DNA of 64,000 bases from Thermaerobacter sp. PB12/4term (GTDB taxonomy: Bacteria > Bacillota > Sulfobacillia > Thermaerobacterales > Thermaerobacteraceae): assembly GCF_003403315.2 (NCBI RefSeq), contig NZ_CP048407.1, positions 2,232,001 through 2,296,000 on the forward strand. Direction: 5' to 3'. Each line of letters starts with the position of its first letter. Positions within the stretch are counted from its first letter, which is position 1. Below, in pieces: positions 2,737 to 58,445 of the stretch. The notes beneath the pieces were generated by a model, which made no database searches, was not told the origin of the DNA, and was given only the letters and a program-made list of their open reading frames with translations. The position numbers and the translations under genes are program-made.

Positions 2737-3485
2737 TCAGGATCCCGCCGTCCCAAGCTGCAGCTCCTTACGCGAGCTCCGGTTCGCCCCAGAGGCAATC
2801 CCAGCCCCACCAGCTCCCCACCGGATGGCCGGATTGTCATACGCCCACGCCGGATACTCCTCCGCCAGGAGGAACCGCCGCGCGTAATGACCGGCGAGGG
2901 CAATGTACCGTTGCCCGGCCGGGGAGCCGGCCCCCAGCTGGTGGCCCAGGTGGCAAAGCAGGGCGACCTGGGCCGCGTCGGCCAACTGGACCGTTACGTC
3001 CTTGGCATACTACTGGGCTTCTTCCGGCCGGCGGCAGGCCGCCTCCGCCAGCCGGGTCAGGGTCTGCTCGATGACCTGGCGGGCATGCCGGACCTCTGGG
3101 GTGCCGGGTTCGTCCAGCATGGGGATGAACTCCGCCAGAAAGGCCTCGTGGGCCCTTTTCTTGACCATGGCCTCCAGCAGACCCAGGGCCTGAATGTTGC
3201 CCGGAGGACCTCCAGTAGATACCCTCCTCCGGCTTGCCCACCAGGTAAGCCTCGCTGCCTCGAAAATCCACCTCCCCCGGGGGCCCGAGCGGGTGGCGTT
3301 CTTATCCTTACAGCCGCCGCACGAAGTAGTTCAGCTCTCCTGCATGGTGACGACTGGGAACAAGAACGAGAGCCAGCCCCAACTCCTCCTACCACTGGGC
3401 CAGCTGGGAAGCAGGCCAGGACGTGCCGCAGACCGGGGTCTACGTCCCAGTGATTCAGGCCGTAGGCGTAGGATTGGTACCGCAC
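2737..3485 (-). pseudogene. Decayed AidB-like acyl-CoA dehydrogenase (relic 1)
   Basis: Reading the minus strand from GTG 3485 gives an N-terminus VRYQSYAYGLNHWDVDPGLR. Fragments in shifting frames follow: RRLKDKNATRS and EVDFRGSEAYLVGKPEEGI, then NIQALGLLEAMVKKRAHEAF and a long C-terminal stretch. The C-terminal stretch is broken by one TAG (near 3012) and ends at 2737. These fragments match, in order, the adaptive-response flavoprotein AidB: the LKDKxGNRS / EVEF / GxxGEGI block and the NIMxLDVLR region. The large middle of the enzyme is deleted and at least two frameshifts are present, so it is non-functional. A second relic of the same family lies at 48059-48511 with a near-identical N-terminus. 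Assignment rests on motif order recalled from AidB, not on a search. Confidence 0.65.
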
Positions 3486-46424: not shown

Positions 46425-47765
46425 TCACTGCCCGGTGCGGCTCAACAGGTCGTTGATACGCCGGGCCGCGTCCGGCAACGCCTCTTCCGGTTCCCGCCGG
46501 CCACCCAGAATGTCGTCGCGGGTGTTGAGCAAGATCTCCACGATCTGGAGACCGGACTCCCCCGGGAAGCTGGTCCAGGGCACCACATCGGGCAACTGCT
46601 CAAGGGCCGGCTTCATCAAGGGGTTCTCCCGCAGGAAGGGACCCAGGTAGGCCTCTTTCGTGGCGTCCTTGTGGGGCGGCAGGTAACCCGTGCCCTTGAC
46701 CCAGATGGTCAGCGCCTCAGGCGAGACCATGTACTTGATGAACTCCCAGGCCGCCTCCTGCTGGCGCGGGTCCTGGGCCAGGATGAAGAGGGCGTTGCCC
46801 CCCGCGGGAACCCGGCGGGGCTTGGAGCCGAAGGTAGGGAATTTGGCCGTGCGCAGGTCGAACGTGCTGTTCTCCTCGAAGTACGACCGCTTGGCGATGG
46901 TGGTGATCAGGATCCCGACGCGACCGGCCGCGAAGGCCTGGTTGCCCTCCTCCCACTTGGCGTGGAGGGCGGTCTTGTCCTTCAACACCATGTCCGCGTA
47001 CAGGCGGAAGGCCTCGATGGCCTCCGGGCTGCCGATCCCCGTCTCCCGCTTGCCGTTCTCGGAGATCAGGAGCCGCGCCCCGTTGGATTCGATCAGGGCC
47101 TGCTCGATCCAGAAGTCCGGCGGCTGCTGCATGTAGAAGCCGTAGGCCCCGGTCTTTTCCTTGATGATGCGGGCGTATTCCCGCACTTCCTCCCACGTGG
47201 CGGGCGGGCGATCGGGGTCGAGCCCGGCCTGCCGGAAGAGGTCGGCGTTGTAATAGAGCACCGGGTTGGAGATGGAGAAGGGCATGCCTTCCAGCTTGCC
47301 CCCGACCCGGCCCAGGTCGAGGACCTGCGGCAGGAAGTTCGACAGGAAGTCGGGGTCGTTGGTGTCACGACGGGCGGCCTCCTCCACGGGCAGGTGGGGC
47401 AGGTTCTGGGCCACGTAGTCCAGGAAGTTGTACCCCACCTGGATCACCGCCGGCGGCCGCCCCGCGGCGACGGCAGCCTGCACGTTCTCAATGATCCCCT
47501 TGTAATTCCCCGGGATGAACTTGGCCTCCACCCGGATGTCCGGATGCGACTGGTTGAACCGCCGGACGATCTCGTCGGTGGCGGGACCGCCCCAGTCGGC
47601 CGAGTTGACGTGCCAGTACTCGATGGTCACCGGCCCCCCGGCCGACGACCCGCCCCCGGAGGCGGAGGTCGGCGCCCCGCCGCAGCCCGCCGTCACCGTC
47701 GTGACCAGCATCGCCATGGCGAGTCCCGCCCCCGCAGCCCAGCGACGGTACCCGGCCACCTTCAT
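46425..47765 (-). CDS. Sugar ABC importer solute-binding lipoprotein (family 1)
   Basis: 446 residues, first gene of the operon. GAGGGGAGGGG precedes ATG 47765. Signal peptide with lipobox VTAGC, acylated Cys about residue 28. The binding-protein fold shows TIEYWHVNSADWGG, RFNQSHPDIRVEAKFIPGNY, FSISNPVLYYNADLFRQAGLD and FIKYMVSPEALTIWVKGTGYLPP, all typical of UgpB/MalE-like proteins. The ligand is not evident; glycerol-3-phosphate, disaccharides or polyols are all possible. Confidence 0.94.
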   Translation of the reverse strand: MKVAGYRRWAAGAGLAMAMLVTTVTAGCGGAPTSASGGGSSAGGPVTIEYWHVNSADWGGPATDEIVRRFNQSHPDIRVEAKFIPGNYKGIIENVQAAVAAGRPPAVIQVGYNFLDYVAQNLPHLPVEEAARRDTNDPDFLSNFLPQVLDLGRVGGKLEGMPFSISNPVLYYNADLFRQAGLDPDRPPATWEEVREYARIIKEKTGAYGFYMQQPPDFWIEQALIESNGARLLISENGKRETGIGSPEAIEAFRLYADMVLKDKTALHAKWEEGNQAFAAGRVGILITTIAKRSYFEENSTFDLRTAKFPTFGSKPRRVPAGGNALFILAQDPRQQEAAWEFIKYMVSPEALTIWVKGTGYLPPHKDATKEAYLGPFLRENPLMKPALEQLPDVVPWTSFPGESGLQIVEILLNTRDDILGGRREPEEALPDAARRINDLLSRTGQ

Positions 47766-48058
47766 GCGGTGCCCCTCCCCTCATGACGAGCCGGCCAAAC
47801 GGCGCCAGCACCACGCCGGCCCACCACGCGCCGCGCCGGCGAGATGGAAGGATCCAACATGTTTTCAACACCTCCGTTCCAAAGGGTTCACGACGGAGCA
47901 ATGCCGGGGGTTATCGTCTTGTTATAGGCGGGTTAAGATGATGCTAGGAATCGGTGGCTATTCATCATTATGTAGGTTATTTCCATATGGGATGCATTTG
48001 TAATTGCGCTGGAAGGCGAACCGGAAAAGCGACCGAGTGGATGAGAAAACGTGGCGCC
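47766..48058. other. Upstream region of the sugar importer operon
   Basis: 293 bases without an intact gene. 47920-48010 is AT-rich. On the minus strand TATAAC (about 47921-47926) could be a -10 with a weak TTCCTA -35 18 bases upstream. The stretch near 48000-48058 is decayed continuation of the AidB-like relic. Confidence 0.4.
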
Positions 48059-53587: not shown

Positions 53588-53826
53588 GGGTGCCCACCGC
53601 CCCGGGCCCGGCCGGGGGCGTCCGCAGCCGTGGTGGTTTCGGTCGCCGCGGTCCCGGCGCCCTCGCCGCCTGCACCACGCCCGGGCCGCGTGCGCAACAG
53701 CGCCTGCAGCCGCGCCAGGTAACGGGCTCGCAGGAACAGGTGATAGGCCATGATCGTTGACAGGCTGATGCCGAGCATCTGCCAGAGGGGGTCGCCCGGC
53801 AGGTCCACCAGAACCCGGTCCATCAT
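53584..53826 (-). CDS. Short membrane-anchored protein, unknown
   Basis: 80 residues. ATG 53826 has GGAGG eight bases upstream and overlaps the diguanylate cyclase stop by four bases. One hydrophobic helix (WQMLGISLSTIMAYHLFL) is followed by a basic LRARYLARLQALLRTRP segment and a Gly/Ala/Thr-rich tail. It lies between a cyclase and a multi-pass protein in a tightly coupled operon; function unknown. Confidence 0.6.
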   Translation of the reverse strand: MMDRVLVDLPGDPLWQMLGISLSTIMAYHLFLRARYLARLQALLRTRPGRGAGGEGAGTAATETTTAADAPGRARGGGHP

Positions 53827-54986
53827 TCCTGACACCTCCGCAGCGCGATTCCCGGCGAGGGCCGATACGCCACGCCCTCCGCCGCTTCGGGCGCCGTCGC
53901 CTGCCCGCAGACGCGGACGGCATTGCGGGATGAGTACTTGGCCGCGTACAGGGCCTGATCGGCCGCTTCCACCAGCTGCTCCGCCGTGCCCGCGTGGTCG
54001 GGGAAGGTGGCGACCCCCGCGGAAACGGTGACCCGGCCCACCGGCCGGTTGCGGGCGTCACGGAAGAGGTGCGACTCCACCCGGGAGCGCAGGCGCTCGG
54101 CGATGTCCAAAGCCTCCTGCGAAGAGGCTCCGGGCAGCAAGACGGCAAACTCCTCGCCCCCGTAGCGAAACACCACGTCGGTGCGGCGCACGTCGGCACA
54201 CAACAGGCCGGCCACCTCCTGCAGCACCCGATCGCCGCTGCGGTGGCCGTAACGGTCGTTGAAGCGCTTGAAGTGGTCCACGTCCAGCAAGACCAGCGAC
54301 ACCGGGCGGCCGCGGTCTCGCCCCTCCCGCAGCAGGCCCGACAGGGTCTCGTAGAAGGAGCGGTGGTTGAGCAGGCCGGTGAGGCCGTCGGTCTCGGCCT
54401 TCTGGCGGCTCAGGTAGTACTCACGCAGGATGAACAGGAGCAGCGGCACCATCGCCCAGGTTTCCAGGACCACCGCCCACACCTCGGGAGTCCGGATGAT
54501 GGTGCCGAAGGCCTCGTTGGGCCTGGCGAAGGACTGCCTCACCAGCATATAGGCGCGCAGGTAGCTGAAGGTGAAGGCCGCCCCCGACACCGCCAGGGTC
54601 GGGCGTAACGGCAGGAAGCGGGCCACGTAGAACACCTCGGTCACCATCAGCAACACGGCCGGGCCGCTGCGCCAGATCTCACCGGCGAGGCCGGCATCAT
54701 CGGTGAGGATGAAGTTCAGGTTGACGTAGACGAGAAAGGCGAGGCTGCACGCCACCGCGGGCAGGACCACGTCCTCGGTGACCGGCCGCCGGCGGAGCCA
54801 GGCCAGGTACAGGCCGTAGGCACCGCCGAACACGAGGGATAGCAGCAGCCAGTTGTCCAACGCCTGGCGCTCGACGGCCAGGGCGACCACCAGGCTGGTG
54901 ATGATGTGGTTGGCACGCACCCACACGCCCAACCCGCGCTCGTGGGCCCAGGCGCGGGACTGGGGGACCACGCTCGCCCGGTGCAC
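53823..54986 (-). CDS. Membrane-bound diguanylate cyclase (GGDEF)
   Basis: 387 residues from GTG 54986 with GGGAGG eight bases upstream. The N-terminal ~200 residues hold about six membrane helices (LLLSLVFGGAYGLYLAWL, VLPAVACSLAFLVYVNLNF and others), a probable ligand-sensing module. The GGDEF domain follows: DGLTGLLNHRSFYETL, LVLLDVDHFKRFNDRYGHRSGD and active-site GGEEF. RRTD lies five residues before GGEEF, the RxxD inhibitory site, so product feedback is expected. It makes c-di-GMP from two GTP. The EAL gene that would degrade it lies just beyond the operon but is disrupted. Upstream GGTGAA repeats (55079-55095) suggest response-regulator control. Confidence 0.92.
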   Translation of the reverse strand: MHRASVVPQSRAWAHERGLGVWVRANHIITSLVVALAVERQALDNWLLLSLVFGGAYGLYLAWLRRRPVTEDVVLPAVACSLAFLVYVNLNFILTDDAGLAGEIWRSGPAVLLMVTEVFYVARFLPLRPTLAVSGAAFTFSYLRAYMLVRQSFARPNEAFGTIIRTPEVWAVVLETWAMVPLLLFILREYYLSRQKAETDGLTGLLNHRSFYETLSGLLREGRDRGRPVSLVLLDVDHFKRFNDRYGHRSGDRVLQEVAGLLCADVRRTDVVFRYGGEEFAVLLPGASSQEALDIAERLRSRVESHLFRDARNRPVGRVTVSAGVATFPDHAGTAEQLVEAADQALYAAKYSSRNAVRVCGQATAPEAAEGVAYRPSPGIALRRCQE

Positions 54987-55078: not shown

Positions 55079-55095
55079 GGTGAAGGTTGGGTGAA
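55079..55095. promoter_or_regulatory. GGTGAA-N5-GGTGAA direct repeat upstream of the diguanylate cyclase
   Basis: GGTGAA at 55079-55084 and 55090-55095, exactly 11 bases apart (TTCACC on the coding strand), about 95-110 bases upstream of the GTG. Eleven-base-phased hexamers are the normal operator form for OmpR/PhoP-type response regulators. Confidence 0.6.
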
Positions 55096-55153
55096 GATTG
55101 GGTTTCGTCCTGTGGGGCCCGCGCTCCCGGGCGCGGCCCCGCCGCGCCACCTC

Positions 55154-56407
55154 TCAGGAGCGCACCGCCCGCCCCGGGCGGAAGGCCCGCCGCAGGGAGA
55201 AGGGTTGCTGGACCAGTAGGTTGTCCCGGTACACGCGCCCGGCCCAGCGGAGAAGCAGCCACAGGACGGCCAGGTTGACGGCCACACCCAGGAGCGGCTG
55301 CCACAGGGGAGGTTCCAGCGTGACGACGCGGGCGAACATGATCAGGGGGGTCAGGAACGGGACGAAGGAAGCGATGGTGGCCACCTGCCCCCCCGGCGTG
55401 ACAAGGGCAACTATCGCTACGATGTATGCGACCACAAGAATTATGGTCGGCAGCCCCGAGGCATTCTGAACCTCCTCCGGGCGGCTGACCATCGCCCCCA
55501 TGGCGGCGTAGAGGGCCGAGTACATCAGGAAGCCCAGAAGGAAGAAGACGAGAAGCCAGGCCCAGGTTCCCACGGGCACGCTGGAGAGCTGCAGGTCCTC
55601 CAGTGACACCGGGCTCCCCAGCTGCCCCCGTACCAGGACCGCGCCCACCCCCACGACCGCCATCAGCAGGAACTGCAGCAAACCGGCGGCCCCCAGGCCC
55701 ACGAGCTTGGAGACGAGGAGAGTGCCGGGGCGGGTGGCCACCAGCAGCACCTCGGCGATGCGCGATGTCTTCTCCGTGGTGACGCCGTATAGCGCCATGC
55801 TGCCGTACATGGCGAGGGCGATGTACAGGACGAGCATGAGCAGGTAGCCCAGGCCCTGGGCAACCAGGGACTCCCGCGGCTCCTTCCCCGGCTCCAGGAC
55901 CACCTCCTGCAAGGGAACGGGAGCCAGTACCGCCTGAAAAGCGGCCTGGTCGATACCCGCCCGCTGCAGGCGCAGGGGCAGGGCCGCCTGGCTCACGGCG
56001 GCGGAGAGGGCCGAGACCGCGTCGCGCTGGTAATCCCGGGACACGTACCGGGCCGCGACGGCTTGCGGTCCCGCCACCGGCTTGAGCCAGAGGACGCCGT
56101 CCACCCGTTCCTCCCGGACCGCCTGCTCCACGGCGGCCTCGTCGGCCGGCCCCGCCCACGGTTCCAGAACCAGGTCGGCGGCCGGCACCCCGGCATCCAG
56201 CACCTCTTGGAGCGCGGCGACCAGGCCCGTGCCCTCGTCGAGGACGGCCACCCGCCGCTGATCCAGTCTGCCCAGCCAGTCCATGAGGGCCGGCAGGAAG
56301 GCCAGGCCCGCCACCAGCAGGATGGCCACGGCCGTCGTCACTTTGTACGCCGTGGAGCGGGTCATCTCCAAGAACTCGCGCCGCACCAGCACGCGGAACT
56401 GATTCAC
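55154..56407 (-). CDS. ABC-2 type permease, NatB-like
   Basis: 417 residues. MNQFRVLVRREFLEMTRSTA and helix 1 (VTTAVAILLVAGLAFLPAL) are typical of NatB/YhaP-type permeases. A ~150-residue extracytoplasmic domain follows, then five or six helices starting LGYLLMLVLYIALAMYGSMA. The motif TTEKTSRIAEVLLVATRPG is the ABC-2 coupling signature. It partners the preceding ATPase; the stop of that gene overlaps this start (ATGA). NatAB pumps Na+ in Bacillus; substrate here is not proven. Confidence 0.92.
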   Translation of the reverse strand: MNQFRVLVRREFLEMTRSTAYKVTTAVAILLVAGLAFLPALMDWLGRLDQRRVAVLDEGTGLVAALQEVLDAGVPAADLVLEPWAGPADEAAVEQAVREERVDGVLWLKPVAGPQAVAARYVSRDYQRDAVSALSAAVSQAALPLRLQRAGIDQAAFQAVLAPVPLQEVVLEPGKEPRESLVAQGLGYLLMLVLYIALAMYGSMALYGVTTEKTSRIAEVLLVATRPGTLLVSKLVGLGAAGLLQFLLMAVVGVGAVLVRGQLGSPVSLEDLQLSSVPVGTWAWLLVFFLLGFLMYSALYAAMGAMVSRPEEVQNASGLPTIILVVAYIVAIVALVTPGGQVATIASFVPFLTPLIMFARVVTLEPPLWQPLLGVAVNLAVLWLLLRWAGRVYRDNLLVQQPFSLRRAFRPGRAVRS

Positions 56408-57402
56408 GGCCGCACCTCCCCGGACTGGCGGGAGGAGGCCCCGGCACCCGGTCCCCCGCCCAGCCCTTCCACCCGGTCGATGTAGATCCGCTCCAGGCTG
56501 GGCAGGCCGATCTCAAAGCGGATCGGCACGCCGAACGCCCGGATACGATCCAGGAGGGCGCCCGGGTCGACCGGTCGCCCGGGCTCGATCAGGTACTCCC
56601 AGTAGTCGGCGCCGCGCCGGGACACGGTCAGCCCCAGGTCCCGGGCGACGACCTCGTAGCGTTCCGCCGCCGCTGCGGCAGCCGCCCCGGCGAAGGCCAG
56701 CCGCAAGGTCCGGCGCCCGTCGGCCCGCTTCACCTCGTCCAGGGTGCCGGCCAGAATGGAACGGCCGCCGGCGATCAGGCATACGCCCTCACAGAGTTCT
56801 TCCACGTGGCCCATGCGGTGGCTGGAGAACAGCAGCGTGCGCCCGGAGCGAACCTGCTCCTGGATGATGCCTTTGAGTACATCGACGTTGACCGGGTCGA
56901 GGCCGCTGAAGGGCTCATCCAGCACGATCAACTGCGGCTCGTGCAGGAGAGCCGTGGCCAGTTGGGCCTTCTGGGCGTTCCCCTTGGACAGCGCCTGGGC
57001 GGGCTTGTCCGCCCACGGCCCCAGTCCCAGGCGCTCGATCCAGGCATTCGCCCGTCGCCGAGCCTCGCCGCCGGGCAGGCCGGCCAGCTCGCCGAAGAAG
57101 GCCAGCTGCTCGCGCACACGCATGCGGGGGTAAAGACCGCGTTCCTCGGGGAGATACCCGAAAGCCCGGGGCGGCAACTCCCCTACGGGTCGCCCGTGAA
57201 AGTGGATGTGACCGGCGTCGGGCGAGAGAATGTTCACGATCATGCGCAGGGTCGTGGTCTTGCCGGCCCCGTTGGGCCCCACGACACCGAAAGCGGTGCC
57301 CGCCGGCACCCGGAAACTGACCTCCCGCACCGCCGCGACGGTGCCAAAAGACTTCCGTAACCCTGCGATCTCCAGGCCCGGCGGGGTGCCCGTCCCGATC
57401 AC
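56404..57402 (-). CDS. ABC transporter ATP-binding protein, NatA-like
   Basis: 332 residues. GTG 57402 has GGGAGGGA about seven bases upstream. Walker A GPNGAGKTTT, YLPEERGLYPRMRV after the Q-loop, signature LSKGNAQKAQLATALLHEP (the LSKGNxQK form is typical of NatA), Walker B LIVLDEPFSGLDPVN and H-loop FSSHRM are all intact. The C-terminal domain ends with a Gly-rich tail overlapping the permease start. Operon promoter region carries four 11-base-phased repeats. Confidence 0.93.
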   Translation of the reverse strand: MIGTGTPPGLEIAGLRKSFGTVAAVREVSFRVPAGTAFGVVGPNGAGKTTTLRMIVNILSPDAGHIHFHGRPVGELPPRAFGYLPEERGLYPRMRVREQLAFFGELAGLPGGEARRRANAWIERLGLGPWADKPAQALSKGNAQKAQLATALLHEPQLIVLDEPFSGLDPVNVDVLKGIIQEQVRSGRTLLFSSHRMGHVEELCEGVCLIAGGRSILAGTLDEVKRADGRRTLRLAFAGAAAAAAAERYEVVARDLGLTVSRRGADYWEYLIEPGRPVDPGALLDRIRAFGVPIRFEIGLPSLERIYIDRVEGLGGGPGAGASSRQSGEVRP

Positions 57403-57872
57403 CGGGGAATCCCTCCCTTCCTCAGTGGACGCTCCCCGCTGCCCGCCCCGATGGCCGTGAAGGGAGGGCCCGGGCACCGTGCTCCAGCGCCGGAAGGGGA
57501 CGCCCATCACCCGGCCCCCCAGTGGCTTACCAACCCAAGGTAATCGGCAAGAGGGGGCCATCGGGTGAAGGGAATGCGAAGCTTGTGTGAACTTTCGGTG
57601 AAGGTTCTCGGTTCACACCCCGGGGGCGCATCGCCCGTTGCTTGAAACATAGTCATCTGTTTCAAGCAGCCGATCCTTACGGATAGGCGGTGCCGGTCTT
57701 ATCCAGCGATCCGCTGGCGCCGGCTTCCCGCTTCCTCCGGGACTGCCTGCCAAGGCCGGTTGAGTTTTGACCCACTTCGGCCGGTTGAAAAGTGACCCAC
57801 CGGAGCTGGCAATCTGGTCCACTCATCCTGCTGTGGTTCGACCGCACTACGAAGGACACCCGAACGGCGCTT
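57403..57872. other. Regulatory region of the NatAB-like operon and IS21 end
   Basis: 470 bases. 57564-57602 holds the phased repeat array. TGCTTGAAACA and TGTTTCAAGCA (57639-57649 and 57658-57668) form an 11-bp inverted repeat with an 8-base loop. At about 57758-57802, TTGAGTTTTGACCCACTTCG and TTGAAAAGTGACCCACCGG are the multiple terminal repeats of an IS21-type element, oriented with the istB fragment that follows. Confidence 0.6.
57564..57602. promoter_or_regulatory. Four 11-base-phased repeats upstream of the NatAB-like operon
   Basis: GGTGAA (57564), TGCGAA (57575), TGTGAA (57586) and GGTGAA (57597) are each separated by exactly five bases, so all four start 11 bases apart. This is the layout of PhoP/OmpR-type operators and matches the pair upstream of the diguanylate cyclase. 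No response regulator gene is in the window. Confidence 0.65.
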
Positions 57873-58041
57873 CTACCGGAGTCGGTAGCTCTCGCCCCGG
57901 ATGTTGATCACGTGACCGTGATGCAGCAACCGGTCGAGGATAGCCGTGGCGATGACCGGGTCACCGAACACCTCCCCCCAGTCGGCGAAGGTCTGGTTCG
58001 ATGTGAGGACGATGCTGCCGCGCTCATATCGGGCCGCCACG
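57873..58041 (-). pseudogene. istB: IS21-family IstB ATPase, C-terminal fragment
   Basis: The minus strand reads ARYERGSIVLTSNQTFADWG, EVFGDPVIATAILDRLLHHG and HVINIRGESYRLR then stop, the invariant end of IstB helper ATPases. Only about 55 residues remain. IS21-type terminal repeats follow at 57758-57802. Upstream it is cut by an IS1182 fragment. Confidence 0.88.
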
Positions 58042-58043
58042 AG

Positions 58044-58445
58044 TTAGAAGAACACCGTGGCGCCCACCTTGTCGAGGCGGGCCTGCTGCCGGGCCGCTTC
58101 CTGAGCCGCCTCTTCCTCCAGCCGCTGCTTGCACGCCTTCAGACGCTCCAGGCGGCTCGCACGGTGGCGCAGCTCCTCCGGCATCGCGTCCCCACGACGC
58201 CCGGGGCCGTACCGCTCATCTTCTTCCCCGTCCGTGGCCTCCGCCTCCCGAAGCATCTGCTCGACTTCCTCACGAATCGCTTCGTAGGTTCGGTTGGCCG
58301 CCAGCGAGGCGTTGGCCTTGACTTTCGTCGCCCGGGTACCCCCTGGCTCCGGAATGGCTTCCCCGAGCGCGTTGGCGACAAGGTCACGGACGGTCGGTGG
58401 AACCGAGCGGTGAGTGTCGTCGTGTACGAGGTGAAAACTTCCCAT
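58044..58445 (-). pseudogene. IS1182-family transposase fragment
   Basis: The minus strand reads TKVKANASLAANRTYEAIRE, EVEQMLREAEATDGEEDERY and MPEELRHRASRLERLKACKQ, the central region of IS1182 transposases, after an unrelated N-terminal 39 residues. It is truncated at both ends and abuts the IstB fragment two bases away, so one element inserted into the other or both were joined by deletion. Confidence 0.7.

Follow-up and report, generated by a model that had tools for sequence, protein, structure and literature searches.

The exporter locus

Two minus-strand genes of the window (the whole stretch of DNA analysed, 64,000 nucleotides) encode a NatAB-like ABC-2 exporter, made up of an ABC ATPase (PF00005) and a PF12698 permease, for which no relative of solved structure was found by sequence. 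Upstream of them, on the same strand, reside four hexamers spaced by exactly 11 bp (plus-strand reading GGTGAA at 57564, TGCGAA at 57575, TGTGAA at 57586 and GGTGAA at 57597). An earlier note on this DNA had reported both the hexamers and their place in front of such an exporter, and all were found as described. Read along the minus strand, the array is TTCACC GAAAG TTCACA CAAGC TTCGCA TTCCC TTCACC, and the units, taken with the preceding base, are CTTCACC, GTTCACA, CTTCGCA and CTTCACC. Features of the region are listed in Table 1.

Table 1. Features of the exporter locus and of related sites in the window
Feature	Position	Strand	Remarks
UgpB-like solute-binding lipoprotein	46425..47765	-	UgpB is the top NCBIfam model, but 124.7 bits fall short of its cut-off of 411
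Third array, CTAGCA N5 TTAACC N5 ATAACA N5 ATAACC	47909..47947	-	Precedes the UgpB-like operon; G002 has it too
Membrane protein with GGDEF domain	53823..54986	-	Diguanylate cyclase family
Second array, GAAACC N5 TTCACC N5 TTCACC	55079..55106	-	Gap between exporter and GGDEF gene
ABC-2 permease	55154..56407	-	PF12698, NatB-like
ABC exporter ATPase	56404..57402	-	NatA/DrrA-like; likely GTG start 57402
Leader stem	57411..57468	-	CCCTCCCTTC (57468-57459) / GAAGGGAGGG (57420-57411); would cover the Shine-Dalgarno sequence
Putative four-unit direct-repeat operator	57564..57602	-	PHO-box-like, 11-bp period
8-bp dyad	57585..57620	-	GTGTGAAC (57620-57613) ... GTTCACAC (57592-57585); overlaps the array, alternative operator or accidental; noticed by direct sight
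Relic right end of TnpB (IS200/IS605-type) element	57635..57751	-	With omega-RNA (RF03015 at 57734-57665); outside the operator

The ATG at 57561, chosen mechanically as the start of the exporter, would leave 3 bp between the array and the coding region. A strong Shine-Dalgarno sequence (57420-57411) precedes the GTG at 57402, and homology with the orthologue of a congeneric species (G002) extends over this codon. The exporter therefore likely starts at the GTG, not at the ATG, and the array lies ~160-200 bp upstream of the gene, 161 bp separating its end from the GTG. A scan for sigma-70 promoters revealed no clear -35/-10 elements. The two arms of the leader stem are identical in the leader of the G002 exporter, and the loop has diverged. 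The fold energy of this hairpin is not below that of shuffled sequences, and compensatory changes are absent from the two species compared. Sequestration of the Shine-Dalgarno sequence, and hence translational control of the exporter, is possible.

The DNA beyond the array carries traces of mobile elements. The TnpB relic is a solo end which stops ~32 bp upstream of the array and points towards the exporter. Its omega-RNA matches the Rfam model with 69.1 bits (cut-off 42.7), and the relic is 86% identical to copies located at 0.72 and 0.97 Mb (L121, L122), beside tnpB genes. Adjoining it, an IS21-like remnant (57757-58050) comprises repeated GTGGGTCA-type ends and a reading frame that resembles the C-terminal part of IstB.

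The array exceeds chance expectation

In the window, three KKYGAA units at 11-bp period, allowing up to 2 mismatches, match only the two registers of the array. In dinucleotide shuffles 0.15 matches are expected, and two were reached in none of 100. First-order Markov sequence of matching composition (5.6 Mb) yielded a best four-unit score of 14.9 bits vs 37.7 for the array, figures which are illustrative only, the unit matrix having been made by hand once the sites were known. Among 41 genomes, its own included, the four-unit pattern (up to 3 mismatches) has a single occurrence, the exporter array. When periods of 8 to 15 were tried on stretches of the same genome, high-scoring arrays emerged at 11 only. 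Shuffle, Markov and period controls place the array well outside chance, and the genome-wide background frequency which, according to the earlier note, would have spoken against a regulatory site was not seen. By its sequence, the array is built as a tandem OmpR/PhoB-type operator would be, and its repeats are very probably an OmpR-family operator of one kind or another.

Related sites in the genome

Pattern and model searches were carried out over the genome (2.82 Mb). Three TTCRC units at 11 bp (up to 2 mismatches), a pattern derived from the array alone, gave 15 non-self matches. One resides in the ~80-bp gap between the gene of a PhoR/PnpS-like kinase and pstS (TTAACA GAAGC TTCACA AAAGG TTCCCC). 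By our own arithmetic, which takes only length into account, 15 random matches would place at least one in this gap with a probability of ~4e-4. PstS matches TIGR00975 with 422 bits, above the cut-off; the best matches of the adjoining kinase are PnpS, WalK and PhoR.

Three TTMACM units at period 11 were found 19 times in the same genome vs 4 for the reversed-pattern control. The best sites are those of pstS and of the exporter, each with 1 mismatch. At 2 mismatches follow one coding-region match and two sites of the window: that of the UgpB-like operon, in which UgpA/E-like permeases come after the UgpB-like gene, and that in the gap preceding the GGDEF gene. Exact two-unit sites number 6 genome-wide vs 0 in the control, and are associated with pstS, the exporter, the GGDEF gene, a multicopper-oxidase/response-regulator/kinase operon, a menF-like gene and a dehydrogenase gene. 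The unit is thus not specific to Pho genes, because exact two-unit sites occur in non-Pho neighbourhoods as well. PstS and UgpB-like genes rank among the best sites of this type, and phosphate genes are prominent, not exclusive, among the companions of the array. PhoP also binds genes unrelated to phosphate.

A matrix for which only the pstS and ugpB-like sites served as input was run on 222 kb of the same genome. With four units, the top rank went to the exporter array; with three, this array came directly after the training sites. In 16 kb around the G002 orthologue, the top match of the matrix was the region upstream of that exporter. A sequence-only model (R1), trained on four companion sites (two of pstS, the ugpB site of G002 and the G002 exporter), returned its training sites only when run on the genome, and recovered the exporter array weakly in the window (5.5 bits, E 4.6), since sequences were too few and spacers over-weighted. 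A site of three TCAACC units at 1.534 Mb was dropped: it lies at the end of a homoserine-dehydrogenase-like coding region, and is probably conserved because it is coding.

Conservation in related organisms

Among three congeners examined, G002 has an orthologue of the exporter (permease 78% identical); a close orthologue is absent from G001 and G003. The G002 exporter is preceded on the same strand, ~240 bp before the start, by GTAACA-N5-TTAACG-N5-TTCACC. Outside this 11-bp array the upstream region cannot be aligned with that of the genome under study. Three orthologues (63-71%) reside in another genus. One features a weak two-unit site (TTAAAA-N5-TTAACC), well upstream of the exporter and in an apparent preceding gene; no array was found upstream of the other two. 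The earlier note had taken absence of the pattern upstream of orthologous exporters as a refutation. An array is present at the one congeneric orthologue, but beyond the genus conservation looks poor from the sequences compared. The pstS and ugpB sites are present in relatives too, in regions too similar to count as strong evidence. No orthologue of the GGDEF gene was found among 12 relatives.

Similarity to PHO boxes

PHO boxes consist of 11-nt direct repeat units, and the core of the S. coelicolor unit is GTTCACC (PMC4415409, PMC6283541). The array is made of tandem 11-nt direct repeat units, its cores resemble GTTCACC or TTAACA, and the genome has sites of the same type at its Pho-type promoters (pstS, ugp). 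The likeness to Streptomyces boxes bound by PhoP extends to the head-to-tail order, the presence of several units per operator, the TTCACC/TTCACA core and the occurrence of phosphate genes among the genomic companions. In contrast to those boxes, one unit of the exporter array has G at the fourth position, the exporter is devoid of a known phosphate role, and the array is a predicted operator. Bacillus subtilis PhoP boxes are TTAACA-type repeats with ~5-bp spacers. The period is the same, and TTAACA/TTAACC units are found in the pstS and ugpB-like sites of this genome, whereas the third base of the units is C in the exporter array, which the high GC content of the genome might lead one to expect. 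The OmpR/PhoP-family reading was narrowed to a PHO box because a pattern derived from the array finds the pstS promoter. It seems moderately probable that the array acts as a PHO-box-like operator, through which a PhoP/PhoB-type regulator would control the exporter.

Candidate regulators and alternative readings

About eight OmpR-type response regulators are encoded by the genome. The strongest candidate for PhoP is the regulator at L031:5363-6217 (G000, 1.9556 Mb). It ties between YycF, MtrA and PhoB, each scored below cut-off and YycF marginally highest with 246.8 bits, and its start is not marked by an array. No strong array was found in the response regulator regions L027, L031, L032, L033 and L034. 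The OmpR-type regulator at L034:4499-5412 is split by a frameshift within the DNA-binding domain, and is a pseudogene or reflects a sequencing error. The earlier note assigned control of the exporter to an OmpR/PhoP-family regulator encoded elsewhere, a view that period, strand, excess over background and the congeneric array all fit, short of proof, and proposed searching for a regulator with the repeats in its own promoter. Such a search points instead to the multicopper-oxidase/response-regulator/kinase operon (G000, ~1.905-1.908 Mb): its promoter features TTCACA CGCTT TTCACC followed by TAAAAT, the units being identical to two of the exporter, but there are two units only.

Should the array be the target of a different OmpR-family protein, the MtrA-like regulator of that operon would be the most plausible candidate, and the exporter would answer metal or envelope stress, not phosphate. 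Besides the shared units, two other response regulator regions carry degenerate 11-bp arrays, one in front of another ABC exporter. Yet in stretches of G002 picked by synteny the second unit of the multicopper-oxidase site is changed to CTCACA, and a Pho set accords better with the pstS and ugpB sites and with the exporter array of G002, in which position 3 varies between A and C; we regard this alternative as unlikely. The res operon is a PhoP target in B. subtilis; identification of the multicopper-oxidase operon as res was ruled out, the gene encoding a multicopper oxidase. The other ABC exporter adjoins a response regulator/kinase pair, and its degenerate 11-bp array (L030:10124-10157, L141:13457-13490) is kept in G002.

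Direct repeats at 11-bp period are shared with operators of WalR/YycF and of other OmpR-family members. WalR sites conform to TGTWAH-N5-TGTWAH, and the complement of the array units (TGTGAA, or TGTTAA) is reminiscent of them. A WalR/YycF-type cell-envelope regulon would agree with the slight preference of the candidate regulator for YycF, and a WalR-type site (TGTTAA-N5-TGTAAA) is found upstream of a WecA/TagO-like gene (L104, about 3250-3278). The exporter array, however, lacks the TGTWAH core, TGTGAA and GGTGAA having G at the W position, and its closest neighbours among the sites are phosphate genes, which makes its membership in such a regulon quite improbable. Least credible is a chance or non-regulatory repeat, for instance a residue of the mobile elements just upstream. 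The TnpB-element relic and the IS21-like end do lie within 32-200 bp of the array, but the array is far above shuffle and Markov expectation, is located outside the homologous IS end, and is not repeated elsewhere in the genome. Moreover, G002 has an array in the absence of either element.

Implications of a proposed PHO-box-like operator

If the array is a PHO-box-like operator, the PhoR/PnpS-type kinase encoded beside pstS would phosphorylate a PhoP/PhoB-type response regulator under phosphate limitation. Upstream of the exporter promoter, the winged-helix domains of the regulator would dock head to tail onto the four 11-bp units, all from one face of the DNA. Activation of the two-gene exporter, as for pstS, would be the most likely outcome; we infer it in preference to repression, and anything on the exported substrate is similarly inferred.

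The exporter array looks like a new, rather ordinary case of a known type of switch, and would amount to a routine operator prediction should the Pho reading be untrue. A bolder and only tentative proposal is that phosphate limitation drives, via tandem PHO boxes, both the ABC-2 exporter and the neighbouring membrane diguanylate cyclase, which would tie phosphate sensing to export and to c-di-GMP. To our knowledge, a link between phosphate and c-di-GMP has not been described for an ABC-2 exporter of this type. The connection is known in other forms, as in the case of P. fluorescens RapA (PMC3032545). If true, the Pho reading would extend the phosphate-starvation regulon of a poorly studied high-GC lineage by an ABC-2 exporter, perhaps along with a diguanylate cyclase, and would provide a clean four-unit operator for determining the DNA specificity of a PhoP-type regulator.
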